From positions 1 to 64,000 of the forward strand of contig NZ_SMFQ01000004.1 in NCBI RefSeq assembly GCF_004339015.1: DNA of 64,000 nt. Reading direction: 5' to 3'. The position numbers and the translations under genes were made by a program. Shown here piece by piece: positions 18,031-37,462 of this stretch (position 1 is the stretch's first letter; every line of letters begins with the position of its first letter). The notes under the pieces were generated by a model, which worked only from the letters and a program-made list of their open reading frames with translations, was not told where the DNA came from and searched no databases. The stretch comes from Cocleimonas flava (lineage in GTDB: Bacteria; Pseudomonadota; Gammaproteobacteria; Thiotrichales; Thiotrichaceae).

Positions 18031-19164
18031 ATGCCACAAACACCACATACATTTGCCTCTAATAGCATCATAGAGAAAATAGCTCATACAGTTGTACACA
18101 CTAAAACTGTCATAGCTACTGCTGTGTGCCTGCTTTATCTAGGCTCTCCTAGTATGGCAATAGCGCAAGGTGTTAACGCTGGCACAGAAATACAAAACAT
18201 CGCCACTGTAACCTATGAAATAGCTGGGGAAGACCAGTCTCCCATAGAGAGTACCCCTGTTGGAAACAGTAATCCCGGTGTAGGCAACGGCTCACCCACG
18301 ATGTTCAGAGTAGACCGTAAAATAGATCTCACTGTTACAGGAAATAACGACGCAAATGTCGTACCTGGTGAAACTCAATCAGAAGTTACGTTTACCTTAA
18401 CCAACGAAGGTAACGATACTCAGGAGTTCACATTAACGCCTGAAGCTGCAGTTGTCAGCGATGATTTTGATCCAGCAAACTGTAGTTATGAAGTGACTGC
18501 AATAAGCGGAACACCCTTACCGGGCGTTGTAATACCAACGACAGGCAACATCCTTTTAGGTCCTGACCAACAGGCAAGCATTGCGGTAACTTGTGATATT
18601 CCGGTGGTTTCTGGAGGCTCTTTATTAAGCTCTGGAGATACCTCATTAATATCACTTACAGCTCAGGCTGTTAAAAATTCTGATGATTCCATGACTACTG
18701 AAACCAGCGGTGTAGATACTGCTGAAAATATAGAAACCGTTTTTGCTGATGACCAGGGAACCGATGATGCAAATCGCGATGCAAGTCATTCAGCCCGTAG
18801 AACGTATCTCGTTTCAGTCTCTGCTACACCACCTACTCTGTCTATCGAAAAAAGTATCGTTAGCTTTTTAGATACCAATGGCGGCACAACGAAAACATCT
18901 GGCACAGAAGTGACGTACAAAATTCTTGTTACTTCAAGCGGTACGGGCTCTATCAATAATGTAGAGATTACAGACCCTACTCCGGCGAATATGACGTATA
19001 AGCCATCAAGCATAATTTTGAATAGTACAAATCAGAGTGACGCTAATGATGTTGCTGACAATACAGATTTTGGTATATCAATTGCGAATACCGCGACCAT
19101 TAAACTCGGAAATATAACTGCGGGTAGCACCCAGGAAATTCAACTTACTTACACCATTAATTAA
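18031..19164 (+). CDS. Exported DUF11 domain protein A
   Basis: 377 residues. The ATG lacks a clear ribosome site, so the start may differ. A long polar N-terminus is followed by TAVCLLYLGSPSMAIAQG, a signal peptide with cleavage near residue 46. The mature part begins with the GTEIQNIATVTYEIAG motif, then beta-sandwich modules, and ends in a DUF11 repeat (EVTYKILVTSSGTGSINNVEITDPTP). It is paralogous to the protein at 19761: ATVTYEIAG/ASISYNVGG, VDRKIDLTV/VDKKIDLSV, NVVPG, FTLTNEGN/FTVTNEGN. DUF11 modules build surface and adhesin stalks. First gene of a five-gene surface locus; function inferred from family and context. Confidence 0.8.
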   Translation: MPQTPHTFASNSIIEKIAHTVVHTKTVIATAVCLLYLGSPSMAIAQGVNAGTEIQNIATVTYEIAGEDQSPIESTPVGNSNPGVGNGSPTMFRVDRKIDLTVTGNNDANVVPGETQSEVTFTLTNEGNDTQEFTLTPEAAVVSDDFDPANCSYEVTAISGTPLPGVVIPTTGNILLGPDQQASIAVTCDIPVVSGGSLLSSGDTSLISLTAQAVKNSDDSMTTETSGVDTAENIETVFADDQGTDDANRDASHSARRTYLVSVSATPPTLSIEKSIVSFLDTNGGTTKTSGTEVTYKILVTSSGTGSINNVEITDPTPANMTYKPSSIILNSTNQSDANDVADNTDFGISIANTATIKLGNITAGSTQEIQLTYTIN

Positions 19165-19175
19165 AGGAATACACA

Positions 19176-19679
19176 ATGAATAGGTATATAAAAATAAAAA
19201 AATTAGCAGTAGGCGTTATTGCTTCTCTTTTATTATTGTCGACTCAATCTTTTGCCGCACAGCAAGGACATCTCAAAGTTACGTCTAAAGCGCAAAAAAT
19301 GATTGTTGTGAATAATAATGGGCAAAAAGCCTATAAATTTGTTCCTGCCACTAAAATTCTTCCTGGAGAATTAGTGCAATACAATACGTATTTTCAAAAT
19401 ATTGGCAATCAACCAGCTAATAACATCAATATCGTAAACCCGATTCCGAAACACACGGTTTACCTTCCAAATTCTGCCCAGGGCAAAAATACAAACATCG
19501 TATTTTCTGTTGATGGTGGAAAACACTATGGGAAAGCAGGCACGCTAAAAGTTCGAGATAAAACGGGAAAGATTGTTCCAGCAAGACCTTCGGACTACAC
19601 CCACATCCAATGGCGATACAATGGAAATTTAGCGCCTAATGTTCAACAGGCAGTAGCATTCAGAGTTCGCCTGCTATAA
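19176..19679 (+). CDS. Exported single-module DUF11-like protein B
   Basis: 167 residues. It follows gene A by 11 bp with AAAGGA in front of the ATG, so they are probably co-transcribed. A signal peptide ending LLLLSTQSFAA is clear. The mature protein is one DUF11-like module: LVQYNTYFQNIGNQPANNINIVNPIPKHTVYLPNSA, and ends in HIQWRYNGNLAPNVQQAVAFRVRLL. That last pattern (conserved beta strands closing FRVRL) is also seen at the end of protein E (LFRVRVK). A single-domain DUF11 protein beside multi-domain ones suggests a subunit or cap; this is inference. Confidence 0.78.
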   Translation: MNRYIKIKKLAVGVIASLLLLSTQSFAAQQGHLKVTSKAQKMIVVNNNGQKAYKFVPATKILPGELVQYNTYFQNIGNQPANNINIVNPIPKHTVYLPNSAQGKNTNIVFSVDGGKHYGKAGTLKVRDKTGKIVPARPSDYTHIQWRYNGNLAPNVQQAVAFRVRLL

Positions 19680-19760
19680 ACCCTGATCTTACATAGACAA
19701 ACATTAAAAAAAATATGTGATCTTTTAAATACAAACCACAAACCTTAATAGAGAAATACA

Positions 19761-20816
19761 ATGAAAATGAAAATAATCTCAAGTTTAATTAGTGTGGCAG
19801 TTTTATCCGCTGTTACACACCCCATTTATGCAGCAGGTACTGCGGCAGACACAGACATCAATAATACAGCTTCTATTAGTTATAATGTTGGCGGAACCGC
19901 TCAAACACCGATTGAAAGCTCAGAAACTGGTAATAGCATTGCGGGTGTTGGTGCGGGAACAGCGACAACGTTCAAAGTGGATAAAAAAATCGACTTGTCT
20001 GTAACACCTGGCTCTAATGTCAATGTGGTTCCAGGCACATCTGCACAATCTATTACTTTCACCGTAACTAATGAAGGAAACAGTACAGAAAATTTCAACT
20101 TAACTCCTTCACAAGTAACAGGTGATATCTTTGATACTTCAGCTTGTTCCGTTGCTGCTCCTGCATCACTCCCAGTTTCAATTGCTGCGGACGGTACAGC
20201 AAGTGTGACGGTAAACTGTGATATTCCCGCAAGTGGTGGTGTAGTCGTTAATGGTGCAACCTCGGATATTGACTTACTTGCAGTAGTTGATGGTGTCACA
20301 GAAACAACAGGTACAGATACAGCTAATGCAGTAGATACAGTATTTGCTGATGACATTGGTACAGCAACTGACGAGGCTATAGCTGGAACAGGAGCAGCAG
20401 GAAACAGAAACGCTGCGCACTCTGCGATTAATACTTACGTCGTTAACACTGCAGATATTACTGTTAAGAAAACATCTGCAGTAACCGCAGACCCTATTAA
20501 TGGATCAACAAATCCAAAGCGTATTCCTGGTGCTACAATTGAATACACAATCGAAGTAACAAACGCTGATGGAGCTGCAGATGCCGCAGGACTTATCATT
20601 TCTGATATTTTACCTGTTGGTACTGGTGCTGTAGGTGGTGCAACCGCTTCTACCAATGGGCTTGAATTCGTAAGTTGCTCTTCAACGGGTGATGCAACTG
20701 CAGCAGTAACGTGTAGCGAATCAGGCGGAACAGTTACTACAAGTGCCTTCACTTTACCGGGTGGATCGGGCTCAGCGTCTGTTCAAACACTTACCATTAT
20801 TGCAACTGTAAAATAA
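19761..20816 (+). CDS. Exported DUF11 domain protein C
   Basis: 351 residues, 81 bp after gene B. Signal peptide MKMKIISSLISVAVLSAVTHPIYAAG. The N-terminal half matches protein A (see VDKKIDLSV, NVVPG, FTVTNEGN, and the common VDTVFADD). The C-terminal half is a DUF11 module beginning VKKTSAVTADPINGSTNPKRIPGATIEYTIEVTN. That DPINGxxNPKxIPGA start recurs in protein E (27128). Composition is acidic and Ala/Thr/Gly-rich, typical of secreted beta-sandwich proteins. An inverted repeat with a 13-bp stem sits between this gene and the next. Confidence 0.8.
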   Translation: MKMKIISSLISVAVLSAVTHPIYAAGTAADTDINNTASISYNVGGTAQTPIESSETGNSIAGVGAGTATTFKVDKKIDLSVTPGSNVNVVPGTSAQSITFTVTNEGNSTENFNLTPSQVTGDIFDTSACSVAAPASLPVSIAADGTASVTVNCDIPASGGVVVNGATSDIDLLAVVDGVTETTGTDTANAVDTVFADDIGTATDEAIAGTGAAGNRNAAHSAINTYVVNTADITVKKTSAVTADPINGSTNPKRIPGATIEYTIEVTNADGAADAAGLIISDILPVGTGAVGGATASTNGLEFVSCSSTGDATAAVTCSESGGTVTTSAFTLPGGSGSASVQTLTIIATVK

Positions 20817-20835
20817 GCCAGCCTATTTTATAGAA

Positions 20836-20867
20836 ACCACACTAATCTCATCACAGATTAGTGTGGT
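20836..20867 (+). other. Strong hairpin between gene C and the giant gene D
   Basis: ACCACACTAATCT (20836-20848) and AGATTAGTGTGGT (20855-20867) pair perfectly over 13 bp with a 6-nt loop. No T tract follows, so it is not a standard intrinsic terminator. It may stabilise the 3' end of the upstream mRNA or reduce expression of the giant gene. Confidence 0.8.
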
Positions 20868-20893
20868 CATTCTAATAAAAATAAGTAAAAAAT

Positions 20894-23800
20894 ATGCGGC
20901 ACATCAGCAATATAGCGTCTAGCTTCAAGCGCAAGCTTCAGAGAAACAGAATTACTTCTAAGTCTTCCTTGGGTAGCTCTGTGGGCACTATATTCTCAAT
21001 CTTCCTGTTATTGATATTGATAACATTTCATTCATCCGCGACTGCTGAAACGTTAATCACTAATACAGCCACGGCTAATTATTCTATAAACGGTATCGAT
21101 AAAAACAAATCGAGTAGCGTGCAATTTACAACCGATAATATTGTTGTTGCCACCGGAATTACACTCCAGAAAAAATCCAATATCAGTCGAGCCATTGTTG
21201 GTCAAATCATAGATTACAGTTTGATTGTTACTAATAATGCTGATGCAATTCAGGCCAATCTATCCATTGAGGATTTATTACCAACAGGTTTAGAATACCA
21301 GCAAGCTAGCGCTAAACTTAACAACTCAAGCATAAATACTAGTGACATATCACTAAACGATAATGATATTACCTTTAGTTTGGGGGATATGCCTGCAAAC
21401 GCAATCTGGACTATCACCTATAAAGCCAAGGTCACAACGACTGCTCCTTTGGGTTCAGCGATCAATCAGGCAATTGCAAGCTCAGACACCACTGAATCTT
21501 CGCCTGCACAGGCCACAGTTACTATTTATGAGCAAGTTATCGTAGTACCTGTAATACCCACCGTGCCTTTAGAGATAGAGAAGAAAGCGAACATTAACAC
21601 CGCTAAGGTCGGTGATAGTATTGTCTACGCAATAAACATAAAAAATCCAAATTCCAAAAACATACCCAGTGTCACACTCACAGATATCTTGCCTGTCGGT
21701 TTGGCGTATAAAGTCGGGTCTGCAACATTAAACAATAACGCTATAACAGCAGATACTTCAGAAGGTTTACGTTTTAATTTAGGGAGCATGTCATCTAATA
21801 GTGAATGGACAGTTACCTATGAAACCACTGTTACTGATGAAGTCACTTCTAGAGATTTGGAAAACTCAGTGACAGCGACTTCATCTGATACAGATGCTAA
21901 CTCTAATACCAGTAAAGCATTAGTGACTGTTGTTAATGATTCTATACAAATCACGAAAACAAGCAGCGAAGAAAATGTATACGTTGGAGATATTGTCACT
22001 TACGACGTTGTTGTGAGAAACCCAGCACTGCACGATTTAAGCAATTTGATTGTAAAAGATACCCTCCCTAATGGTTTCATTTATCAATCAAATAGTTTTA
22101 CATTAGATGGTCAAGCACTCTCAGATTCTGAGATTTCTTATAGTGGTAATAATTTATCCATCAATGTTGATTCACTTGCTATAGGTAGCACTTTGACACT
22201 GAGTTATAAAGTGTTAATCAGTGATGCTTCTGCGAGTGGTGATGTAGTCAATCAGGTTCTGGCAAACAGTACTTTTGGGACTTCAGATATAGCGACAGCA
22301 AGTGTCAAAGTACGTACCCCATCAACCATAAATTTCTTAAAAATTAATGAAGCGGGTAATATCGAAAATATCCCCTCGAGTGCGTATAACGCTGATCAAA
22401 ATGGTGGTAAAAACTGGCAAGAGATTAGTCAGATTACGTTGCCTAATGGAACAGTTATCAGTCTACCAAATCCACAGCCTATAATTGATGCGGAAGATTA
22501 TTCTGTTTCAGAACCGGTTATCATTGAAGTAATCGATAAAGACCAAAACGTTGATCCGGATAAGCTCGAAACCATTATAGTCACAGTAACTGTTCCCGGT
22601 ACCAACGATACTGAAATTCTATTACTCACGGAAACAAGTACCGATTCTGGAATTTTCAGAGGGGCTGTTTTAACTACGGCAGCATCTACTCAAAAACAAA
22701 ATGGCGTTTTAACAATTGCAGATGGCATTAAGATCAGCGTTTCTTATCTGGATCAGGATGATAAAACAGACACAAGTGCAACTGCGGCTTTAGTGGTTCC
22801 TGATACAAAGCTTTCACTGTCTAAGACAGTAGATAAAAGCTCTGCGTCAATTGGTGAATTAGTCAAATATTCTCTGGATTTCCAAAATACCACTGGATTC
22901 AATTTATCTAATATCCAAGTAAATGACTTTCTGCCACTTGGATTTCGCTATGTTTCAAACACGGCATACCTGAATGGAGAAAAATTAACAGAGGGAGTGA
23001 GCGCAAACGGTCGTAAATTATTATTTAGCGTTAATAATTTAACAGCTGGTAGCACTGCAACGATTGAATACATAACAAAAATCACCGCAGGCGTACAAAC
23101 CGGTAAAGCAACCAATACCGCAGTCCTTTCCAGTGGAGGCTTAACATCAAATACTGCATACGCAAGTATTGAAATTGATGACGACTTGATGCGTACTAAA
23201 AACATTTTGACCGGACGAGTCTATATCGGTTGTGATACGCATTCATCGAAAAACAAATCTGTACCAAAAGTTTTGAAAGATGCCAGAATTTATTTAGAAA
23301 CAGGACGCAGTGTCCTTACCGATAAAGACGGCTTTTGGCACATGGAAGGGGTTCTTCCTGGTAGTCATGTATTGCAACTAGACACAGATTCATTACCAAA
23401 GGGTTACACTCCTTTACTGTGTGAAGACAATACGCGTCATGCGGGAGATGCGAAATCACAATTTGTTGATTTAACTGCTGGGTCTTTATGGCAGGTTAAT
23501 TTTCATGTTAAAGAAGGTCTTGATGCAAAAGAATCTACTGAACCTGACAGCCCTGTATCGCCTAAAGCTAAAAAGAAAGGCGCAAATCCGATAACGCTTT
23601 TTGGTGCTAATTACTTAAAATCAGCAGAACCTGGTTTTGAAATCCTTTGGCCTAGAAACAACCATGTACCAGATGTTGCATCTATTAAAGTTTTCATCAA
23701 AAGCTCACCTCAGGAAAAAATTGAAGTGTTCCTAAATGGAAAGAAAATTAGTGCACTCAACTATGATGGCAGTGACAGCAATAAAGCGCGCACCGTCAAA

Positions 23801-26800
23801 ATTAGTCGCTGGTTAGGTATCGATATTGATACACGCATAAAAAATAATGCATTACTTGTTATTGCCAAGGACAAGTCAGGAAAAGTCGTTGCCAAAGAAA
23901 CAAGAAATATTCACTTTTCTGGCATACCTGCTTCTGCCGAATACTTACCCGAAGAGTCTGTATTAGTAGCTGATGGTAAAACCACACCTGTCATCGCTTT
24001 ACGCATAAAAGATGAAGATGGCTACCCTATGCGCGCGAACACGCATGGCTATTTAACACTAGACAACAGTAACTACCAAATTAAGACGTTAAACGAAGCT
24101 GACCAAGATAGACTCAATATCAATGAATCATTATCGGGTAGTTATAAATACATTGTTGAAGAAGATGGGATTGCAAGAGTAGAGCTCAACCCGACGACTC
24201 AATCAGGTGAAGTGAGATTTACTGTCAACTTTACAGAATCTCAATCTAAAACCATCAGTGCCTGGTTGAAACCACAGTTACGTGACTGGATTTTAGTCGG
24301 TATCGCTGAAGGCACACTGGCACACAAAACAATCACCGGAAATATGCAAACACTCGAAAGTCTGGGTAAATCAGATGAGTTTTATAAGCGTGGACGCTTT
24401 GCTTTCTTTGCCAAAGGTCAGATTAAAGGAAAATACTTATTAACCGCAGCGTACGATACGCATAAAGCAGAGAATGAAGTTGGCAGTCAATTAGCGGGCA
24501 ATATCGACCCTGATGAATGGTATTCAATTTATGCTGACAATAGCAGCAGTCAATACGATGCACCAAGCTCGCGTAAACTATATCTTAAGATAGAAAAAGA
24601 TAATTTCTATGCGCTTTTTGGTGACTATCAAACAGCCATGACAGTGACCGAATTAGCCAGCTATGAACGCGTATTAAATGGTATCAAAACAGAATACCGT
24701 GGGCAGCGCTTCAATGTTAAAGGCTTTATCAGTGAAACCAGCAACAACCATCAACAAGATGAAATTCAAGGTGATGGAACTTCTGGTCTTTACCGCTTAA
24801 GTGAAAACATCATCCCAAACAGTGAGTCGATTAAAATCGAAACGCGAGATCGTTTTCACTCAGACCGTATCGAAGAGACAAAACAACTGACTCGTTATCA
24901 AGACTATAGTATTGACTACGATGCTGGCACCCTATTCTTTAAATCTCCTATTGCAAGCAGAGACAGTAATTTCAATCCTAACATTATCGTCATTGATTAT
25001 GATTCCGAAGAAGACACAAACAAAACCATAGTGGCTGGTGGACGCGCATCCATGAAGTCTTTCAACGATAAGCTTGAAACAGGCGCAAGTATTATTTATG
25101 AAGAAAATACCAATGGAAAAGCTGATCAGTTAGTTGCGGCTGATGCTACCTACAACATCACTAAAGATACTAAATTACATATCGAAGTAGCTGAATCGAA
25201 AACGACTGAAAGTGATTTCGAAAAAAGACAAGCAATGATTATCGAACTGGAAAAAGAAGTGGAGCAAATGGAAGCCCGTCTTTATGCAAAAAAGCATGAT
25301 GAAGATTTTGGCATAAGCTCACAAACCAGTGAAAGTGGCACTGAAAAAGTAGGTGCAGAAGTCACTTATCGTTTGAATGACAAGACAAGATTAACCTCTC
25401 AGCTATTGTATGAAAACAATATTGAGAACGATAACAAACGCAAATTAGCGCAGGTAGGTATTGAGCATCGATATAAAAATATCGAATTAAATGCCGGTTT
25501 ACGCCATACGCAAGAAAATCTTGGCAGTAATGATACCAGTGATGATATCACGACTACTTCTGACGTCAGTACCCATGAAAAAATCACCACGAATACCGTT
25601 ATCTTAGGCGGCAGATACACAACCAAAAATGATAAAATTACGCTTCGTACTGACTTGGAAAAGAACTTCTCTTCTGATGATGGTAGCGAATTAAGCCCTG
25701 ACCGTTTTGTTGTTGGTGTGGATGTGAAACTCCAACAAGGATTCACCGTCTTTGCTGAAAATGAAACCACAGACAATGGCATTGTTACAACGCATAACAA
25801 CCGCGTAGGGGTGTATAAAGACCTGTGGAAAGATGCCAAAGGTAAGACAACTTATACACAAGAACGTACGGCAGAAGGCCAACGTAATTACGCTACCTTA
25901 GGGCTTAGTCAAAAACTTAAAGTGACGGATAAAATCAGCGCTGATTTTAGTATTGATCGTGCAGTTACAGTAGGTGATCAAAAATTCTTCAATACCGATG
26001 AAACGACCATTCAAGGAACAGACAGTGATGACTATACAGCGTTCTCTGTAGGTTTAGGTGCTAACGAAGAAGTCTGGAGTTGGACAACTCGTGCTGAATA
26101 CCGCAATGGTAAGGTTTACGACAAGGTAAATTTCCTGGCCAGTGTTATTCGTCACCTTGATGATGGCAAACACCTCAGCGCTAAATTCTCCTACTACGAT
26201 CAAGACAGTACCGAAGGAGATGCGGAGCAAAATATCAAACTCAGCTTAGGGTCTGCATGGCATCCGAAAGATGAGAGTTTTGTATTCTTCAGTCGCTTAG
26301 ATTTAATTAGTGAAAAGGAAAATTCTATTGATGAAAGCAGTGAGTTTTCATCATCGGATACCGATACACGAAAGATCGTGCACAATATGCATTTCAATAA
26401 AATTCTTAATAAGGATGCGAAAAGAAAACTGCAATTCAGCATTCATCATGGCATTAAACATGTAAAAGATGAAAACAGCGGAGTTAAATACAGCACAACG
26501 GTTGATACAACTACAGTTGAATTACGTAAAGACATCAACAAACGCTGGGATATCGGAGCCCATGCAGGTTACTTGCATGACTGGAAAAGCAATACCATGG
26601 AAACAGTAGCCGGTGTATCAGTCGGTGTCACTCCTGCAAAAAATACCTGGATTGAAGCAGGTTACAATTTCGAAGGTTTTGATGATGAAGATTTTGACGA
26701 AAGTAACTTCAAACGAAAAGGCCCCTATGTCGACTTTAGATACAAATTTAATCAAGATTCACTCAATCTCAATAAACCACGTTCTCACAGAAAAGATGAT

Positions 26801-26851
26801 AAACAAGCAGATCAAAAAGCAAACAAAGAAATCATGCTAGAAGCTGAGTAA
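20894..26851 (+). CDS. Giant DUF11-repeat protein with C-terminal outer-membrane beta-barrel
   Basis: 1985 residues; no good ribosome site precedes the ATG. A long basic N-terminus and helix (GTIFSIFLLLILITFHSSATA) act as an extended signal peptide. DUF11 modules follow at about 90-205, 225-345, 350-465 and 640-760, with an interposed beta domain near 500-630. A carboxypeptidase-regulatory/SdrB-like module (about 770-870: ILTGRVYIGC, TDKDGFWHMEGVLPGSH) and Big-like domains (about 900-1090) precede a region of about 850 residues of alternating amphipathic strands, the pattern of a large outer-membrane barrel, with a short coiled-coil insert near 1455. The last strand YVDFRYKF is followed by a charged tail. 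Likely the membrane anchor of the locus; surface display is inferred. Confidence 0.82.
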   Translation: MRHISNIASSFKRKLQRNRITSKSSLGSSVGTIFSIFLLLILITFHSSATAETLITNTATANYSINGIDKNKSSSVQFTTDNIVVATGITLQKKSNISRAIVGQIIDYSLIVTNNADAIQANLSIEDLLPTGLEYQQASAKLNNSSINTSDISLNDNDITFSLGDMPANAIWTITYKAKVTTTAPLGSAINQAIASSDTTESSPAQATVTIYEQVIVVPVIPTVPLEIEKKANINTAKVGDSIVYAINIKNPNSKNIPSVTLTDILPVGLAYKVGSATLNNNAITADTSEGLRFNLGSMSSNSEWTVTYETTVTDEVTSRDLENSVTATSSDTDANSNTSKALVTVVNDSIQITKTSSEENVYVGDIVTYDVVVRNPALHDLSNLIVKDTLPNGFIYQSNSFTLDGQALSDSEISYSGNNLSINVDSLAIGSTLTLSYKVLISDASASGDVVNQVLANSTFGTSDIATASVKVRTPSTINFLKINEAGNIENIPSSAYNADQNGGKNWQEISQITLPNGTVISLPNPQPIIDAEDYSVSEPVIIEVIDKDQNVDPDKLETIIVTVTVPGTNDTEILLLTETSTDSGIFRGAVLTTAASTQKQNGVLTIADGIKISVSYLDQDDKTDTSATAALVVPDTKLSLSKTVDKSSASIGELVKYSLDFQNTTGFNLSNIQVNDFLPLGFRYVSNTAYLNGEKLTEGVSANGRKLLFSVNNLTAGSTATIEYITKITAGVQTGKATNTAVLSSGGLTSNTAYASIEIDDDLMRTKNILTGRVYIGCDTHSSKNKSVPKVLKDARIYLETGRSVLTDKDGFWHMEGVLPGSHVLQLDTDSLPKGYTPLLCEDNTRHAGDAKSQFVDLTAGSLWQVNFHVKEGLDAKESTEPDSPVSPKAKKKGANPITLFGANYLKSAEPGFEILWPRNNHVPDVASIKVFIKSSPQEKIEVFLNGKKISALNYDGSDSNKARTVKISRWLGIDIDTRIKNNALLVIAKDKSGKVVAKETRNIHFSGIPASAEYLPEESVLVADGKTTPVIALRIKDEDGYPMRANTHGYLTLDNSNYQIKTLNEADQDRLNINESLSGSYKYIVEEDGIARVELNPTTQSGEVRFTVNFTESQSKTISAWLKPQLRDWILVGIAEGTLAHKTITGNMQTLESLGKSDEFYKRGRFAFFAKGQIKGKYLLTAAYDTHKAENEVGSQLAGNIDPDEWYSIYADNSSSQYDAPSSRKLYLKIEKDNFYALFGDYQTAMTVTELASYERVLNGIKTEYRGQRFNVKGFISETSNNHQQDEIQGDGTSGLYRLSENIIPNSESIKIETRDRFHSDRIEETKQLTRYQDYSIDYDAGTLFFKSPIASRDSNFNPNIIVIDYDSEEDTNKTIVAGGRASMKSFNDKLETGASIIYEENTNGKADQLVAADATYNITKDTKLHIEVAESKTTESDFEKRQAMIIELEKEVEQMEARLYAKKHDEDFGISSQTSESGTEKVGAEVTYRLNDKTRLTSQLLYENNIENDNKRKLAQVGIEHRYKNIELNAGLRHTQENLGSNDTSDDITTTSDVSTHEKITTNTVILGGRYTTKNDKITLRTDLEKNFSSDDGSELSPDRFVVGVDVKLQQGFTVFAENETTDNGIVTTHNNRVGVYKDLWKDAKGKTTYTQERTAEGQRNYATLGLSQKLKVTDKISADFSIDRAVTVGDQKFFNTDETTIQGTDSDDYTAFSVGLGANEEVWSWTTRAEYRNGKVYDKVNFLASVIRHLDDGKHLSAKFSYYDQDSTEGDAEQNIKLSLGSAWHPKDESFVFFSRLDLISEKENSIDESSEFSSSDTDTRKIVHNMHFNKILNKDAKRKLQFSIHHGIKHVKDENSGVKYSTTVDTTTVELRKDINKRWDIGAHAGYLHDWKSNTMETVAGVSVGVTPAKNTWIEAGYNFEGFDDEDFDESNFKRKGPYVDFRYKFNQDSLNLNKPRSHRKDDKQADQKANKEIMLEAE

Positions 26852-26883
26852 TCCATACCCTGATTCATTGGAAAAAACATCTA

Positions 26884-26912
26884 GGCACCCCCCACCTTTA
26901 AGCCCTTTTTTT
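26884..26912 (+). repeat. Dispersed C-rich element, copy 7
   Basis: GGCA, six C, ACCTTTAA, GCCC and seven T, 33 nt past the stop of the giant gene. Here the flanks are GGC and GCC, the swapped form of the GCC and GGC seen in other copies, which keeps pairing possible. Confidence 0.8.
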
Positions 26913-27127
26913 ATTTACGACGTAGAGTTAATAATAACGGGTAAAACAATGATAAAACTGTCAATAAGTCTGTACCAAGTATCCAGAAAAACCAACAAAG
27001 CGTGTGCAATTAATATAAAATAATTGCATACAAGAGAAATAATCAACATTACCACGAAAGTATTATCGCCAACATAATAACAACTCTATGGCTACATAGT
27101 ATTTACATTTAAAGATTCATACCGCTG

Positions 27128-28438
27128 ATGTTAAAAACTTTTTTACGCTTTATCCCCACATTACTAGGCTTACTGTTTAGCATTCTCGCTAATGAGTTAA
27201 TGGCTGCTGGGCTGATTGTGAATGAAGCTTCAAACGGGATAAGTGGCGCAAAAGAATTCTATGAATTTATGGTTGTTGGTGACTCTGCAAACCCTACTTC
27301 TCCGGTCAATATTAATCAATGGATAGTAGATGATAACAATGGTGATTGGGGAGGAAGCATTACTGGCGTTGGTATCTCATCCGGATACATTCGATTTGAT
27401 TCGCAAACTGATCCCGCCAATTGTTCTGGCTTAAACGCAATAACCCCGGGGTCTATTATCGTTGTCTATAATGGTGATGATACCAATGCAAATATGCCAA
27501 GTGACGACGCCACTGATTCAAATGGAGATGGTGTTTATATATTTCCTGCTGAAGGAAGCTGCTTAAAAACCTGTGCAGGGCCTCCAAGCTCGTCCGATGC
27601 AGGCTATTCTAGTTGCAGCACTCCGGCTACGCCGAATTATTCTACAATTGCCATGCGAAATGGTGGAGATTCCGCACAATCCAGAGATGCGAGTGGCAAT
27701 TTGTTTCATGGTTTTACCTATGGAGACATACCAAGTCCCTACCCAACAAACTCTTTTAATGTGTCAACGGGTAGTGGTTCGTTAAGCACATTTCTATTTT
27801 CTTGTGGCAGTTGGTATATTGGCTCAAATTTTTCAAAGATATCTGCGATTGCCGATACGCCTGGGTCTACAAACAACGCTGCTAATGAGATATTTAGAAC
27901 AAATATTCAGTCTGGTAGTTTTAATTACAGCAATCTGTCAGATGCTGCGAATTGTGCTGTGTTGTCAGATCCTAGCATCAGCTTACGAAAAAGTGCCCTG
28001 ACAATATCTGACCCCATAAATGGCACCAGCAACCCAAAAACCATTCCGGGTGCCTTAAAACAATACGCAATAGAAGCAACAAACGCTGGTATCGGCGTCG
28101 CTGATCTTAATTCAATTGTGGTAACTGATGCTATACCCGCCAATACCGCTTTATACGTCGATGACATTTCCGGGGTTAGTACAGGTCCAATCCGCTTTGT
28201 TGATGGATCTCCACCCAGTGGACTCAGTTACAACTATGCAGGTTTATCAAGTGCATCGGACAATCTTAGCTTTTCCAATAATGGGGGCAGCAGTTATACC
28301 TATACACCAACACCAGATGCAGATGGCGTAGATGCCAATGTCACCCATATTCGTGTATCTACAACCGGTCAATTTCTGGGAACGACTGTAGCGGGTGATC
28401 CTTCATTTCAACTACTGTTTAGAGTAAGAGTAAAATAA
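27128..28438 (+). CDS. Exported lamin-tail-like / DUF11 protein E
   Basis: 436 residues. Signal peptide LLGLLFSILANELMAAG. The N-terminal half starts GLIVNEASNGISGAKEFYEFMVVG and continues with INQWIVDDNNGDW, the pattern of lamin-tail-domain (LTD) proteins in bacteria, often found on secreted proteins. The C-terminal third is a DUF11 module (LRKSALTISDPINGTSNPKTIPGA) close to that of protein C, ending in LLFRVRVK. It lies 276 bp after the giant gene with dispersed element copy 7 between, so it may have its own promoter. It converges on murJ. The surface role is inferred from family and neighbours. Confidence 0.75.
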   Translation: MLKTFLRFIPTLLGLLFSILANELMAAGLIVNEASNGISGAKEFYEFMVVGDSANPTSPVNINQWIVDDNNGDWGGSITGVGISSGYIRFDSQTDPANCSGLNAITPGSIIVVYNGDDTNANMPSDDATDSNGDGVYIFPAEGSCLKTCAGPPSSSDAGYSSCSTPATPNYSTIAMRNGGDSAQSRDASGNLFHGFTYGDIPSPYPTNSFNVSTGSGSLSTFLFSCGSWYIGSNFSKISAIADTPGSTNNAANEIFRTNIQSGSFNYSNLSDAANCAVLSDPSISLRKSALTISDPINGTSNPKTIPGALKQYAIEATNAGIGVADLNSIVVTDAIPANTALYVDDISGVSTGPIRFVDGSPPSGLSYNYAGLSSASDNLSFSNNGGSSYTYTPTPDADGVDANVTHIRVSTTGQFLGTTVAGDPSFQLLFRVRVK

Positions 28439-32761: not shown

Positions 32762-34363
32762 TTAACTGATAAACAAATCATTTAAATAAGCACTAGTGAT
32801 ATCTGAGGGATTGCTAGCGAAATTAGACACATTGGGGAATATTTCTGGTATCAATGATTCCTCTAAACCAAACCACTGACAGATACTCGCATTCACTTGA
32901 TCTTGTGAAGTGGTTGGAATAATACGGCCTTTATCACTGTAATCATCAGGACCATCTGGATTAAGATCAGGCAATGTACCTATCATAGTGCCACCATTAA
33001 GCGTACCTGAAGCTGGATTTCCTGAACCACCCATAACAAAGTGATGTGAACCCCAGGCATGATCAGTACCTCCACCGGCATTGATACTCAGTGTACGACC
33101 AAAGTCAGACATGGAGAAAGTAGTGACTTTATCTGCATGGCCTAATTCTTCCATCGCTTTCTGGAATTTCCACAAACCCAGGCTTAGTTCACGTAATAGT
33201 TTTGCGTGTCCATCAGCCTGTCTCGCGTGGGTATCGTAACCACCTAAGCCCACGAAAAATATTTGTCGCTTATAATTCCCCGTATTAAAATCATCGTTAA
33301 CGCCTAAATCAATCATCTTAGCGACATTTTCCATGCGTGGTATAAAACCCGTATCAATCCCTTGTTGAAACCCTAAATCATCGGTTGAAGGCACATCGAA
33401 CAAGCTCTCGCCATAAGGTCCTTTAGTACTATACGTTATGTCTTTGCGTTCCCATGTAGCGGTTAACAGGTCAAAATTATTCATTGAACGTTCGAGTAAT
33501 CCTGCACTGAGTTTTTGAAAAGGATCTTTATTTTTACCAACTGCAATTAACTCTCTAAATAAATCACGTCTCTCATCGCTCCATGAACCTGCATTTAATT
33601 TCATGTCGTTAAACGAAGAAGGATTGCCCGGATTTAAAATCAACGGACTTGTTGTATCTCCTATCAATAAGCGACTATTTCCTGAATATGAAATATTTAA
33701 GCCCAGTGATGAATTATTGTTAACGCCTGCCCAGCTATCTGCAATCTTACCTGCCCAGCCAATTGCATCCAGATTGTCAGCTTGCCCTGTTTGAAGCGCT
33801 CGTTGTTGATGATTATGCGCAAATAAAAATAGCGGTAAATTAGCGGTTTTATTTTGAATCTGTTCTCGCGTTACGGGTGCTACCATATTTCCCGAATTAG
33901 CAATAATAGACAATTTATCATCGGTAACAAGTTGCGCGAACTCAGGCATTACAGCGTTTACCCCTAATGGAATTCCTTTAGCGCCAAGATCATAAAAACC
34001 TTTGGTATAAGCTGATTCTTGAGATAGGTTAACATTGTATAGATTCGAACTACCTCCACCCATTGTACCGTTATGCATGGCTGAGCTTATCGATGATAAA
34101 CCAAGATCATTTTTTTGTACGGCAAGCGCAGCACGAATAGCGGCATAATCAGCATGTGTTGCATCGCTAGGTACCAGCATATTAAAACCGTCATTTCCGC
34201 CCAGCATAAAGACACAAACCAGTGCTTTGTAATCTGAAAAATCCGGCGTTGCCGCGACTGCTTGATTCATCAGCGCTAGTTGACCTACAGTACCTAAGGT
34301 ACTAGAAGCACCACCCGCGGCAAGTAGCTGCATAAATTTTCGACGATTCATTTTACTAGTCAT
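32762..34363 (-). CDS. Tat-exported DUF1501 family protein
   Basis: 533 residues. The N-terminus carries a twin-arginine signal (NRRKFMQLLAAGGAS, then a hydrophobic core and AVAA). The mature part has the DUF1501 pattern: YKALVCVFMLGGNDGFNMLVP near residue 45, later FFVGLGGYDTHARQ and TFSMSDFGRTLSINAGGGTDHAWG. DUF1501 proteins belong to the sulfatase/alkaline-phosphatase-like superfamily and are exported. The gene directly follows the DUF1800 gene on the same strand (92-bp gap). DUF1800/DUF1501 pairs are common in environmental bacteria; their substrate is not known. Confidence 0.92.
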   Translation of the reverse strand: MTSKMNRRKFMQLLAAGGASSTLGTVGQLALMNQAVAATPDFSDYKALVCVFMLGGNDGFNMLVPSDATHADYAAIRAALAVQKNDLGLSSISSAMHNGTMGGGSSNLYNVNLSQESAYTKGFYDLGAKGIPLGVNAVMPEFAQLVTDDKLSIIANSGNMVAPVTREQIQNKTANLPLFLFAHNHQQRALQTGQADNLDAIGWAGKIADSWAGVNNNSSLGLNISYSGNSRLLIGDTTSPLILNPGNPSSFNDMKLNAGSWSDERRDLFRELIAVGKNKDPFQKLSAGLLERSMNNFDLLTATWERKDITYSTKGPYGESLFDVPSTDDLGFQQGIDTGFIPRMENVAKMIDLGVNDDFNTGNYKRQIFFVGLGGYDTHARQADGHAKLLRELSLGLWKFQKAMEELGHADKVTTFSMSDFGRTLSINAGGGTDHAWGSHHFVMGGSGNPASGTLNGGTMIGTLPDLNPDGPDDYSDKGRIIPTTSQDQVNASICQWFGLEESLIPEIFPNVSNFASNPSDITSAYLNDLFIS

Positions 34364-34455
34364 GGAAATATTTCCTGATTGTTTTAATTTTTTTATTCTT
34401 TTACTTTTACTTTTACTTTTAGAACGAATACTTTAAATAATTTTAAAAGTTGTCG

Positions 34456-37290
34456 TTACTTTTGCACCATATAAGCACTAGATGTAGCGATGTAGCGTAT
34501 AGTTTCAGAGACTAAATAATGTGCCGCTCGTACTGTATTAGAATTATTATAAGTACCCGACGTTAACATAAAGTTGGTTAAGGCCTGTCTAAAGGTAGCG
34601 TCCATGGTGTTACCTAACATGATTTTATCAAGATGGTCTAATAACGCATTTACTGCTATTTCACGGTCTTCAATATTTCTCATATTACTAAAGTCACCAT
34701 TTGTATCACCATCTAAAGCTTGTTCGAATAGCTCAAACTCACGATCGTAATTAACAATAATATTGGTACTCCAGGTCGTTTTATTTGCTGCAAATTCAGC
34801 CAGTGTTTCCTCATTTATATTATTTATCCAGTTCTTTTCATATCGTTGCATATGACTGGCTATTTTATTATGCGCACTCAATATATTGCCGTCTGTTTGT
34901 ATTTGAGATTCTGGTGAAACCAGTTTGTTAACAGAAAACTCCGTGTTACTAGGGATGTAATCAGGTTGATAAAAGTTAAATACTGAACTTGATCTCAACG
35001 GGGCTTGCCCAAAATCATTACTAGGGAAACTATAGGTATAAACGCCATTTACCGTTGCACTTCTACCGTCACCTCTATCGCTATCCGCTCTGCCTTTCCA
35101 GCCATTTAATGGCGTTGCATTAAAACTTCTAAGTAATTGAGTAAAGACTAATATCGGTTCTTTGAGTTTGCCAAAATAGGCGCTTTGGTTGCTTGAATCT
35201 CTTGCTTCAGAATCAGTAAGAATAGCGTTAACAACTGCTTTTAAATCACCTTTTACGCCTGCGCCATTATCATTAAAAACACTAGCTACTCTGGCGACAT
35301 ACGCAGATGAAGGGTTTGACGTAACCAGATTCATAATCAGATTTTTACTGACAAATGGAGCAATATTAGGATGTTGGAATATCACATCTAAAGCAGCATC
35401 TAATCCACTGCCGTCAGTGCCAGAATTTAATGCAAATGTTTTACCTAAGACCGTTACATCACCATCGCCACCTTCGGCAACCTCATCTTCGTGATGTTCA
35501 GGATGAAATACCATGGGAGCAGCATAATCTGCCCTTCCCAGATTAGTCCCACCATAGTAAGTATTTCCTTTGGTATCCCAACCGGTCATTACTTTGGCTA
35601 GTTCGACGATATCTTCTTGCCCATAGGTTGGTACTTGAACAGAACCAGAATCTGGGTAGCTATTCACATTGCCATCGCGATTTGGTGAACCATCTAAATT
35701 AAGTTCGGACAAACCAATTGTGAATAATTGAATCAATTCACGTGCATAGTTCTCATCAGGGCGTGTCGATGTTTCAGGGTTCGCTTTTTGGTTACCCTGA
35801 TAAGTCAGATAAACGCCCATTGTGGCACTTCGTGAAACCTCGCCTAAAAGCGTTCGATAATTGCCAAATGCATTTTTAGCCAATATGTCATAAAAGTAAG
35901 CAAGACTATCACCGCGTTGATCTAAACGCGGATCTTTTGCAGAGACAACAATTAACTGGCTTAAGGCATAAGCGATACGTTGTCTTAATTGATCACTACC
36001 ATGTCGGACATTATCCGGATGACCCAATGCATTCTCAAACCAGGTCGACATTTGATAATATTTTACATTCCAGTTAGGTAAATCTACACCTGAGTTAAAG
36101 GTATACCCGGATTGTACCCAGCCTATGGAAGGTTCAGCTAATTGTGCGACTTCTGCGGTTCTTTGTAGATGTGTTTTATGGGAATCAGATGGATTGTCAT
36201 AGGCTGATGACATATCAAGCTGGTTCTCAATCCATGCGTCTACTCCTATCTTAACAACCGTGTCGATATCTTCTTCTGTAGCGCCAAAAGTAGCCTGACT
36301 TAATAAACGATAAGCGCTATTAACTGATGCTGCCCGTGATGAGTCTTCAGGGTATTCGTCTTTACTATTGATGACCCCATCAGCATCTGAATCAGATTCA
36401 TCCGTACTATCACATACATCGCCCTTGCCATCATTATCAGTATCTTGTTGATTTTTATTGGGTGCTGCAGGGCAATTATCAACTGAATTTATTATTCCAT
36501 CGTAATCATCATCACTGATATCCGTAGTATCACAGGCATCACCGACACCGTTATTGTCTAGGTCACTCTGATCTGTATTTGATATTGCAGGGCAATTATC
36601 ATTACTGTTCAAAATACCGTCACTATCATTGTCGCGATTGTCTGTTGTATCACAAGCATCGCCCTTACCATCATTGTCAATGTCACTTTGGTTGGGGTTT
36701 GATTTAGCCGGACAATTATCTGTTTCATTGGGGTGACCATCGGCATCATCATCACGATCATTACTCAAATCGCAAACATCACCACTGCCATCATTATCTA
36801 TATCTTGTTGATCAGGGTTCGCAATACTTGGGCAATTATCTAAGTTATCTGCAATACCATCCTGATCATAATCCTGGTCAGTGGCAGTCACATCTAATTG
36901 ATCTAATAAACTCTGAATTTTTGCTACTGAATCAACGTCACCTTCGTTTAATTCAGCGACTTTTTCATTAATTTTTGCCAGATTTGAATTATTAACACCT
37001 TGCAAACCCGCATCGATATAATCTTGTACTTGTGGTGTTGCTGATGCCCCTGCAGTTTGGGCGTACTGACTTATCTTTAGCAGAGCTATCTGACTTACAT
37101 CAGGTGTATCAGGAATATTTGGAGTATCAGGAGTATCAGGAGTATCAGGAGTATCAGGAGTATTTGGATCATCCAGGGTTTCAGATGAATCGGAGTCTAA
37201 ATGTTCGTTAGTATCAGAACCGGATCCTCCACCGCCACACCCACTGAGTACCAGTACCGAAGCAAATAGAATAGGAAGTAGCTTGCCCAT
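34456..37290 (-). CDS. DUF1800 lipoprotein with thrombospondin type 3 repeats
   Basis: 944 residues from the ATG at 37290, picked because GGAG lies seven bases upstream; two earlier ATGs lie at 37302-37305. The start [23 protein letters not shown] is a lipoprotein signal with lipobox LSGC. A Thr-Pro-Asp repeat linker (about 40-65) is followed by a helical stretch and five or six calcium-binding type 3 repeats (about 135-330; [13 protein letters not shown], DIDNDGxGDVCD). The DUF1800 domain starts at [22 protein letters not shown] and has [28 protein letters not shown] and the FYQPDYIPS region. DUF1800 proteins work with DUF1501 partners, here the next gene. Role unknown. Confidence 0.92.
36361..36880 (-). 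repeat. 120-bp tandem repeats encoding thrombospondin type 3 units
   Basis: Related 120-bp units; the string GGGCAATTATC ends at 36480, 36600, 36720 and 36840, giving an exact period. Each unit encodes a 40-residue aspartate-rich repeat. Confidence 0.85.
37100..37166 (-). repeat. 9-bp microsatellite in the DUF1800 gene
   Basis: About seven imperfect copies of a 9-bp unit (AGTATCAGG on the plus strand) encoding Thr-Pro-Asp. Copy-number change would alter linker length without shifting the frame. Confidence 0.85.
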
Positions 37291-37462
37291 AGAAAACTCC
37301 ATCATTATTTTTATTATTGATCAACCTCACAAACCAGACACATAAGCTAAATCAATCATAAGTATATCTAATGATTACATACAACTTAGCCATGTTCACT
37401 TCGATCAGACAAGTGGTTAGTGAGTTTAATCTGTTTCCTATATTTACTTATTACTTATATCA

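Follow-up and report, generated by a model that had tools for sequence, protein, structure and literature searches.

How a Gram-negative bacterium could weld a surface fibre without a sortase is the question raised by five consecutive genes, called here A to E, at positions 18031-28438 on the plus strand of the window, that is, the whole analysed stretch of 64,000 nucleotides from Cocleimonas flava (contig NZ_SMFQ01000004.1, family Thiotrichaceae). A first-pass annotation had placed five open reading frames (ORFs) there, all with signal peptides, and had proposed a surface fibre or layer with D as anchor and the other proteins as subunits stacking through like DUF11 modules. All five ORFs are present, a signal-peptide-like start is seen by eye in each, and the five-gene observation holds; the set is conserved and of more interest than the first description suggested. 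A surface fibre anchored by D is also the reading that we find best supported; stacking through like modules gave way to domain splitting, which is favoured by the half-domain endings of the subunits and by predicted hairpin docking. It is highly probable that a subunit's C-terminal half-domain is completed by the hairpin at the N-terminus of another subunit, and there is a good probability that the whole is a self-clipping, sortase-free surface fibre standing on a giant barrel. As the first-pass annotation stated, no sortase gene lies nearby, and the sortase family PF04203 has 0 matches in the whole genome (3 of 14 control genomes were positive).

Half-domains and hairpins at the protein ends

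The DUF11 domain has been renamed CLIPPER, and the available part of the paper describing it gives an isopeptide bond Lys715-Asn806 with Asp748 (PMC12617251). For comparison of the domains of the locus we used a hidden Markov model (HMM) of 129 positions. Its source was a set of 31 complete DUF11 domains from the interior of D proteins, and its matches to these are nearly full-length (position 2-3 to 126-129). Where a C-terminal domain could be aligned to its end, the match stops at HMM positions 91-94 (5/10 A, 4/13 C and 4/10 Y, the last being a protein of the sister module described below), one to three residues before the end of the protein, and two further A stop at positions 85-88, seven to ten residues before it. 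In the A protein of the window the match ends at position 92/129, three residues short of the C-terminus; the window's own C gave a match of the first half only. For the remaining A, C and Y, as well as for the terminal domains of B, E and X (another sister-module protein), only the first part of the profile was matched and the ending was read by eye. What is missing from these acceptors amounts to about 35 HMM positions and corresponds to the last beta-hairpin.

Mature A, C, D, X, Y and D' (the sister-module counterpart of D) open with such a hairpin, which is lacking in B and E. One and the same pattern was applied to the families and, as a control, to unrelated ORFs. Within residues 20-110 its strict form was found in 8/10 A, 13/13 C, 13/13 D, 10/10 X, 10/10 Y and 11/11 D', and elsewhere in 3/11 B, 0/11 E and 13/463 and 11/167 unrelated ORFs of the same loci (36/463 and 12/167 with the loose form). 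The proteins differ in their parts and are no equivalent subunits: A and C have donor and acceptor, B and E an acceptor only, and D a donor only. Complementation between subunits is very likely in our judgement and, if true, it explains the truncated look of the terminal DUF11 domains.

Conservation of the Lys-Asp-Asn triad

By alignment, the residues of the triad lie in the first strand (Lys), in an xxDxxP turn (Asp) and in the final hairpin (Asn); in the numbering of the 9ifr letters used here, the catalytic Asp falls one residue later than in PMC12617251. The triad is complete in 31/31 internal D domains and divided between two polypeptides for A, C and E, so that at the split joints Lys and Asp belong to the acceptor and Asn to the donor. 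In Thiotrichaceae, Lys and Asp are kept in A (10/10), C (13/13) and E (11/11), and Asn in A (10/10) and C (13/13). Distant loci gave 10/10 Lys, 10/10 Asp and 7/8 readable Asn for A, two A without a readable N-terminus (L096, L099) being left out of the Asn count, 11/11 for each residue of C, and 9/9 for both Lys and Asp of E. In an independent draw the values were 9/9, 9/9 and 8/9 for Lys, Asp and Asn of A, 9/9 for all three in C, and 3/3 and 3/3 for E.

Aligned jointly across phyla, Lys274 and Asp315 of A are found in 33/33 sequences and Asn56 in 29/31 readable ones; Asn35, Lys237 and Asp282 of C in 35/35 each; Lys288 and Asp334 of E in 23/23 each. The family score threshold was lower for the draw and the joint alignment than for the distant loci, hence 29 or 33 A sequences. 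Columns at least 90% identical number 17/325 in A, 21/304 in C and 31/261 in E, with the triad among them. For D, the donor Asn was recognised by pattern in 9/10 distant A-B-C-D loci and in 8/9 of the draw, the ninth being L124; the alignment placed it in only 6/13 Thiotrichaceae D (6 Asn), and the figure of 12/13 in Table 1 was obtained by eye.

E cannot provide its own Asn and D has no free acceptor, and both keep their bonding residues; for E the partner must be another protein. Invariant Lys and Asp would be odd without a partner. From these sequence patterns, we infer that an isopeptide bond is likely to form between the subunits.

Predicted docking on protein B and a possible role of B

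B and C are in one frame, and reading 19176-20000 through three stop codons yields B, a 28-residue linker and C residues 1-80, i.e. the signal peptide and N-terminal hairpin of C. The alignment used to model this chain in AlphaFold2 had 27 rows, of which 3 covered the read-through, 15 only B and 9 only C. The predicted local distance difference test (pLDDT) was 95-98 in B, 47-68 in the linker and 91-97 in the C hairpin, with a predicted template modelling score (pTM) of 0.74. In the model the hairpin docks on B and completes its fold, as in donor-strand-complemented fibres.

Compared with the PDB by VIA-align, 50/50 listed rows span the model from residue 27-34 to 250-275 (these ranges denote only the first and last aligned residue), so the immunoglobulin (Ig)-like matches use both B and the hairpin. 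The best rows were C-domains of streptococcal antigen I/II (Z 14.3, e.g. 134 residues at 2.8 Å); pilin BcpA reached Z 13.9 at 2.3-2.5 Å and the CLIPPER crystal structure 9ifr Z 11.6, with 116/123 residues at 2.3 Å.

At the position of the catalytic Asp, B proteins of 30 A-B-C-D loci carry Asn in 28, Tyr in 1 and Asp in 1, so that Asp is absent from 29/30. This count comprises 11 Thiotrichaceae (10 Asn, 1 Tyr), 10 distant loci (9 Asn, 1 Asp) and 9 drawn loci (9 Asn). B has no conserved Lys column either, and B' of the sister module has Gly at the Asp position in 5/5 rows. B from other arrangements keeps the Asp more often (5/7 in distant loci and 5/7 in the draw). Without Asp and without a conserved Lys, B should hold a hairpin without bonding to it; we tentatively suggest that it might serve as a non-covalent, reversible cap, chaperone or terminator.

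E proteins as candidate tips

The N-termini of E proteins vary, being lamin-tail-like, nidogen-like, a complete DUF11 domain or without any match. Their C-terminal acceptor, by contrast, shares 52-68% identity with the one in the window's E. E-type domains (matches extending to position 161 or beyond, out of 165) occur in 18/18 genomes with a D orthologue and in 0/39 without; none was found in genomes carrying only D'. Two further E-type proteins, of 448 and 660 amino acids (aa) and with mutually related N-termini, are encoded in the same genome away from the locus. FimH of type 1 pili is a tip adhesin with a donor-less acceptor domain, and a variable N-terminus, a donor-less acceptor and strict co-occurrence with D form the pattern of tip adhesins. 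By this analogy E proteins are probably interchangeable tips, which would serve in adhesion.

Protein D as the putative anchor

The four DUF11 modules that the first-pass annotation saw in D are recovered by PF01345 (E-value 6.6e-41, 4 stretches). Its carboxypeptidase-regulatory domain is matched as well, although below threshold (Table 1). Structure prediction had been proposed there as a check of the C-terminal barrel, and AlphaFold2 indeed predicts one, of about 40 strands. The model of D 900-1962 (30 sequences) has pLDDT 78.5 and pTM 0.68; according to its DSSP string, from which the strands were counted, 8 lie in D 1133-1292 and, after a beta insert, 32 more up to D 1953. If the model is right, this would be among the widest single-chain outer-membrane barrels predicted.

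Among Foldseek matches of the barrel model, the Deinococcus SlpA barrel (8ae1) ranks first (E-value 1e-7, template modelling (TM) score 0.23-0.24), followed lower down by LptD, ushers and TonB receptors, with interspersed glycoside hydrolases matching the Ig-like part; rank 40 is chain A of the type IX complex 8gl6, presumably SprA. VIA-align rows for the barrel region are mostly outer-membrane barrels, ranks 1-7 being FimD ushers (Z 12.8-13.8) and FhuA close (Z 12.1). The similarity to FimD, at a root-mean-square deviation of 8.8-13.5 Å, was kept as no more than a lead. Profile searches at E-value 1 gave no usher match (PF00577) in D and no DUF560 (type XI secretion) Pfam match in A-E; the NCBIfam library, which presumably holds an SprA model, returned only TIGR01451 for D. 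The barrel fold is well supported by the model, and no specific relative is. A plain TonB receptor was considered for D and dropped, being at odds with both the gene set and the stalk.

In 6/7 D of the same genus and in 0/7 from other genera, the conserved part comes after three additional CLIPPER domains, which would fit a stalk of variable length in a surface position. D is probably the base of the fibre. Its nearest named relatives by sequence are in Cocleimonas, Leucothrix and other Thiotrichaceae; among the 20 of 27 plasmid records listed, relatives are incomplete, with coverage of no more than 66% and identity under 32%. A first contig scan with D alone recovered no relative.

The acidic domain of D (residues 476-636, positions 22319-22801) bears DxDQNxD and LTETxxDSGIFRG-like motifs. 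A Pfam match of D 473-639, at an E-value of 0.054, far under the cut-off, was taken as chance. The acidic domain, the two Ig-like domains and the split DUF11 halves are additions to the first-pass annotation, which had not named them.

Conservation of the gene set

The other check proposed in the first-pass annotation, whether the genes stay together in relatives, also came out in its favour: A, B, C and D are found together from Thiotrichaceae to other phyla. The family survey covered 57 genomes, 36 with some match and 18 (own included) with a D orthologue. Eleven of the 18 have A-B-C-D in order (A being cut by a contig end in one of them); in the other 7 the array is interrupted by a contig end, and none contradicts the order. 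E follows D in 11/18, and in three (G017, G020, G028) the contig continues but has no E next to D. The genes that flank the set in the window were not found beside it in other genera, except for one weak repeat match, so the set appears to move as a unit.

We further examined 38 named loci, 21 of them outside Thiotrichaceae, recovered through D, so that the presence of D is selected for and that of A, B and C is not. A-B-C-D occurs in order in 10/21: a Gammaproteobacteria metagenome-assembled genome (MAG), a Helicobacteraceae MAG, two Campylobacteraceae MAGs, the isolate Ramlibacter paludis, Oleispira, Methylotenera, Geobacteraceae and two Krumholzibacteriia. One named locus (L104) gave no family match. 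In a phylum-wide draw, the D profile had matches at 1e-20 in 56/398 genomes; 36 of these genomes, counting the own one, matched at full length and above 550 bits; 20 of the other 35 full-length loci comprised 9 with A-B-C-D, 6 with B and D (2.4-4.0 kilobases (kb) between), 2 of D' type and 3 on short contigs with D only. In eight loci (L089, L103, L108, L127, L131, L133, L134, L143) B and D lie 2.4-2.9 kb apart with no recognised A or C, and B keeps the catalytic Asp.

Other genera of the family carry a sister module (L053-L070) of the order B'-X-D'-(OmpA-type protein)-Y, in which the N-terminal hairpins and C-terminal half-domains recur. X and Y are DUF11-type proteins of 880-1061 aa, and D' has 1960-2277 aa and 23-28% identity to D. 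The OmpA-type assignment comes from a PF00691 match in one member; such a protein could tie the sister module to peptidoglycan. The Cocleimonas genome itself encodes another, shorter D relative of 1217 aa (L050:6038-18769, contig C3 at about 612-625 kb), which adjoins a 1289-aa DUF11-type protein and a 1663-aa protein of near-identical repeats that is partly X, i.e. without letters. Near the start of contig C2 (31-657) lies a piece resembling the C-terminus of the D barrel (23% identity, E-value 2.9e-4) with an in-frame TAA.

Proposed assembly and alternative readings

In the arrangement which we favour, the subunits would reach the periplasm by Sec, where B would cover donor hairpins without a covalent bond, as a periplasmic chaperone or terminator. 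Each joint would be one CLIPPER beta-sandwich split over two proteins assembled head-to-tail: the acceptor half, with Lys and the catalytic Asp, would end one subunit, and the hairpin with the reactive Asn would be the mature N-terminus of the next. Docking would complete the fold and the isopeptide bond would form by itself, no sortase being needed. E would stand at the far end because it has no donor, A and C would form the shaft by adding a donor to an acceptor, and the donor of D would take the last acceptor, leaving the chain anchored and ended in the outer membrane; the wide barrel of D may possibly be the exit pore.

Several observations weigh against this arrangement. In the B-C model, a single chain read across three stop codons, the two parts were bound to lie close together, and the modelled acceptor lacks the catalytic Asp, so that the acceptor with predicted docking is not one of those with the bonding residues. 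The triad is accompanied by other invariant residues (e.g. Tyr296 and Pro318 in A and Lys304 in E); structural residues such as Tyr, Gly and Pro and an additional Lys of E share the highly conserved columns with it. Ser replaces the donor Asn in two A proteins (L106, L129) and in D of one Thiotrichaceae genome (L042) and of L098; D of L124 fails the hairpin pattern, yet the Asn is present by eye. Joining hairpins to acceptors and rescoring proved a weak test: hairpin windows gain about 4-9 bits and windows of E, which has no hairpin, up to 10.4, and the N-terminal hairpin was the best joining window in 6/10 A, 4/13 C, 6/7 short D, 3/10 X, 3/10 Y and 9/11 D'. This noisy, sequence-only scan was not used as proof. 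Finally, export of the stalk is left without explanation by the model.

That D is instead a secretion translocon of a type IX-like kind, with the C-terminal domain of E as sorting signal and A, B and C as accessories, seems unlikely. Such a role would suit the E-type proteins with their differing N-termini, unlinked genes (two in this genome) and strict co-occurrence with D, and also the very large barrel with its FimD and 8gl6 matches; however, the Lys and Asp of A and C recur in the domain of E, which argues for linkage rather than only sorting, and the usher profile is not matched in D. The translocon is partly compatible with the split-domain fibre.

We consider rather improbable a donor-hairpin fibre of chaperone-usher-like kind without covalent bonds, in which Lys, Asp and Asn would be kept for packing only. 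Docking is indeed predicted for B, which lacks the Asp, and some DUF11 domains have no isopeptide bond according to the available part of PMC12617251; against this stand Lys and Asp, invariant in A, C and E, whereas B of the A-B-C-D loci lost the Asp in 29/30 and has no conserved Lys.

It is very unlikely that the hairpins of A and C fold into their own C-terminal halves, giving circularly permuted monomers. Both halves do lie on one chain in A and C, but the acceptor of E has no hairpin and the hairpin of D no acceptor, with the bonding residues conserved in both, and the hairpin passes directly into the middle domain with no linker. The like-like stacking of complete DUF11 modules without strand exchange, as first proposed, we regard as highly improbable: tandem DUF11 modules do form stalks of fibrillar adhesins (available part of PMC12617251), but here the terminal modules are incomplete and the missing hairpin is predicted to dock with high confidence. 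In place of a fibre the subunits may also build a surface layer, a fibre being the better supported form.

If the split-domain fibre is confirmed, a natural split isopeptide domain would weld a covalent pilus of Gram-negative bacteria that needs no sortase and whose division into base, shaft, tip and cap is readable from sequence. Uncharacterised DUF11 proteins, which form a conserved gene cassette across several phyla, would thereby gain a function. The fibre could also provide new tag/catcher pairs for protein engineering, and it would raise the question how domains kept rigid by isopeptide bonds get across the outer membrane, to which a very wide barrel would be one answer.

Comparison with known systems

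Chaperone-usher pili divide their roles among parts such as FimA, FimH and FimD. Like them, the proposed system has an N-terminal donor, an incomplete C-terminal Ig-like fold, a donor-less candidate tip with its own N-terminal domain and a large outer-membrane barrel; in contrast, its sequences are unrelated, the donor is a hairpin instead of one strand, the joints are predicted to be covalent and no PapD-type chaperone is encoded at the locus. A classical chaperone-usher pair lies elsewhere in the genome (contig C1:984815-988381): the only PapD-like PF00345 match of the genome is at C1:984815-985144, and the usher matches are at C1:986711-988381, not in D. Type V (FimA/Mfa1) pili are made from lipoprotein precursors whose donor strand is freed by a protease; inspection by eye showed no Cys where A, C and D are apparently cleaved. 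SpyTag and SpyCatcher, the tag and catcher parts of an isopeptide domain engineered from a CnaB domain, react spontaneously with each other; the proposed joint would be their counterpart in nature, a CnaA-like domain apparently split by evolution, its pieces ending and beginning successive subunits.

CLIPPER/DUF11 domains (PF01345, PDB 9IFR) share with the locus the fold, the Lys-Asp-Asn triad and the use in surface stalks, and the internal domains of D are ordinary members; in the available part of PMC12617251 the bonds are within one chain, whereas here the domain would be divided between proteins. The words 'split' and 'SpyTag' are absent from the main text of that paper. The nearest idea is the archaeal thread of Saci_0406, for which the available part of PMC9715654 reports donor-strand complementation with an intermolecular isopeptide, a putative cap and no sortase known. 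The isopeptide is of another kind, joining the N-terminal alpha-amino group to Asn57 two subunits away, and the system is archaeal, with no outer membrane; 'duf11' is absent from the text available. TasA/TapA fibres, in the part of PMC10151520 available, exchange N-terminal strands between beta-sandwich subunits with the aid of a small helper protein. They differ in being Gram-positive, TapA donates its N-terminus where B would accept a hairpin, and the abstract mentions no covalent joint; TapA, which aids TasA through complementation by a strand, offers B a remote precedent in function. The Deinococcus SlpA barrel (8ae1) and type IX 8gl6 are very large outer-membrane barrels like D, with weak global similarity (TM 0.10-0.24), and D differs by its CLIPPER stalk and donor hairpin. 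F-ENA anchors contain DUF11 domains in varying number, apparently as spacers, in the part of that source available.

Two further literature leads were dropped: cargo of type XI secretion, as the 'duf11' matches in the available part of that paper are mostly DUF1194, and a Brucella review, where the match was DUF1134. No description of split DUF11/CLIPPER joints was found in the open-access literature, most subscription papers and bioRxiv preprints lying outside the search. The donor-strand kind of fibre is already known, the parts are unrelated by profile to the known members tested, and the predicted self-welding is new within the literature searched. There is about an even chance that these loci represent a new cross-phyla class of surface polymer: an enzyme-free, split-CLIPPER covalent chain with the dead-domain chaperone B, a D anchor of about 40 strands and exchangeable tips scattered in the genome.

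Layout of the locus and further features of the window

The gaps A/B, B/C, C/D and D/E measure 11, 81, 77 and 276 bases. By profile search the set is flanked on its 5' side by a DUF945 protein and a sub-threshold DUF4846-like protein, and on its 3' side by MurJ and an AraC-type regulator. TIGR01451 (DUF11-type repeat) scores A, B, C and D above its cut-off and E below it (18.3 bits against 24). The paralogy of A, C and E, put forward earlier, agrees with the sequences, which are related in parts, a C-terminal domain being common to E and C. Promoter-like sites in the window show no excess (28 against a shuffled expectation of 32.7), and terminator-like sites a slight one (13 against 7.8, standard deviation 3.1), with positions that are uninformative for the locus.

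Table 1. Coordinates of the genes A-E, of their parts and of two E-type proteins encoded elsewhere in the genome; positions are those of the window unless a locus or contig is named
Feature	Position	Strand	Length	Reading	Basis or detail
Gene A	18031-19164	+	377 aa	Putative shaft subunit: donor hairpin, middle domain, C-terminal DUF11/CLIPPER acceptor half	ORF, TIGR01451; first in A-B-C-D arrays
A residues 47-97	18169-18321	+		N-terminal donor hairpin	Candidate reactive Asn56 at 18196-18198
A residues 267-377	18829-19161	+		Acceptor half-domain to C-terminus	Lys274 18850-18852, Asp315 18973-18975
Gene B	19176-19679	+	167 aa	Small single-domain acceptor without donor hairpin; candidate cap or chaperone	TIGR01451, read-through model
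B Asn88	19437-19439	+		Position equivalent to catalytic Asp
Gene C	19761-20816	+	351 aa	Putative shaft subunit: donor and acceptor	ORF, TIGR01451
C residues 24-76	19830-19988	+		N-terminal donor hairpin	Candidate reactive Asn35 at 19863-19865
C residues 230-351	20448-20813	+		Acceptor half-domain	Lys237 20469-20471, Asp282 20604-20606
Gene D	20894-26851	+	1985 aa	Donor hairpin, CLIPPER stalk, Ig-like domains, predicted giant outer-membrane barrel; probable anchor/base
D residues 51-82	21044-21139	+		N-terminal donor hairpin	Asn57 at 21062-21064; Asn in 12/13 Thiotrichaceae D (by eye)
D residues 89-475	21158-22318	+		Three complete CLIPPER domains	Lys, Asp and Asn present in 18/18 domains of this kind
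D residues 476-636	22319-22801	+		Acidic domain	Profile match to PDB cell-surface protein 8c8k, E-value 0.001
D residues 639-764	22808-23185	+		Fourth complete CLIPPER domain
D residues ~768-875	23195-23518	+		Carboxypeptidase-regulatory-like domain (sub-threshold)	PF13620, E-value 0.025 (residues 793-829); invariant positions
D residues ~918-1130	23645-24283	+		Two predicted Ig-like domains before the barrel	AlphaFold2; PF02369 Big_1, E-value 0.0013, below cut-off
D residues 1133-1953	24290-26752	+		Predicted barrel, ~40 strands	AlphaFold2
D residues ~1294-1359	24773-24970	+		Small beta insert in the barrel	Well conserved
Gene E	27128-28438	+	436 aa	Probable tip/cargo: variable N-terminus (weak lamin-tail match) and C-terminal acceptor domain
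E residues 272-436	27941-28435	+		Conserved acceptor domain	Lys288 27989-27991, Asp334 28127-28129
E-type protein	L121:3335-4681 = C3:204334-205680		448 aa	N-terminal module common to both E-type proteins, acceptor at C-terminus
E-type protein	L122:3598-5580 = C2:1028097-1030079		660 aa	Same N-terminal module, acceptor	Sub-threshold lamin-tail match

Elsewhere in the window, a large surface-type protein, cut by the edge, is encoded on the minus strand at 2-2740 and has DUF7507 (CLIPPER_2), Calx-beta and GEVED domains. At 32762-37305, on the same strand, DUF1501 and DUF1800 genes are neighbours, the second with thrombospondin type 3 repeats.

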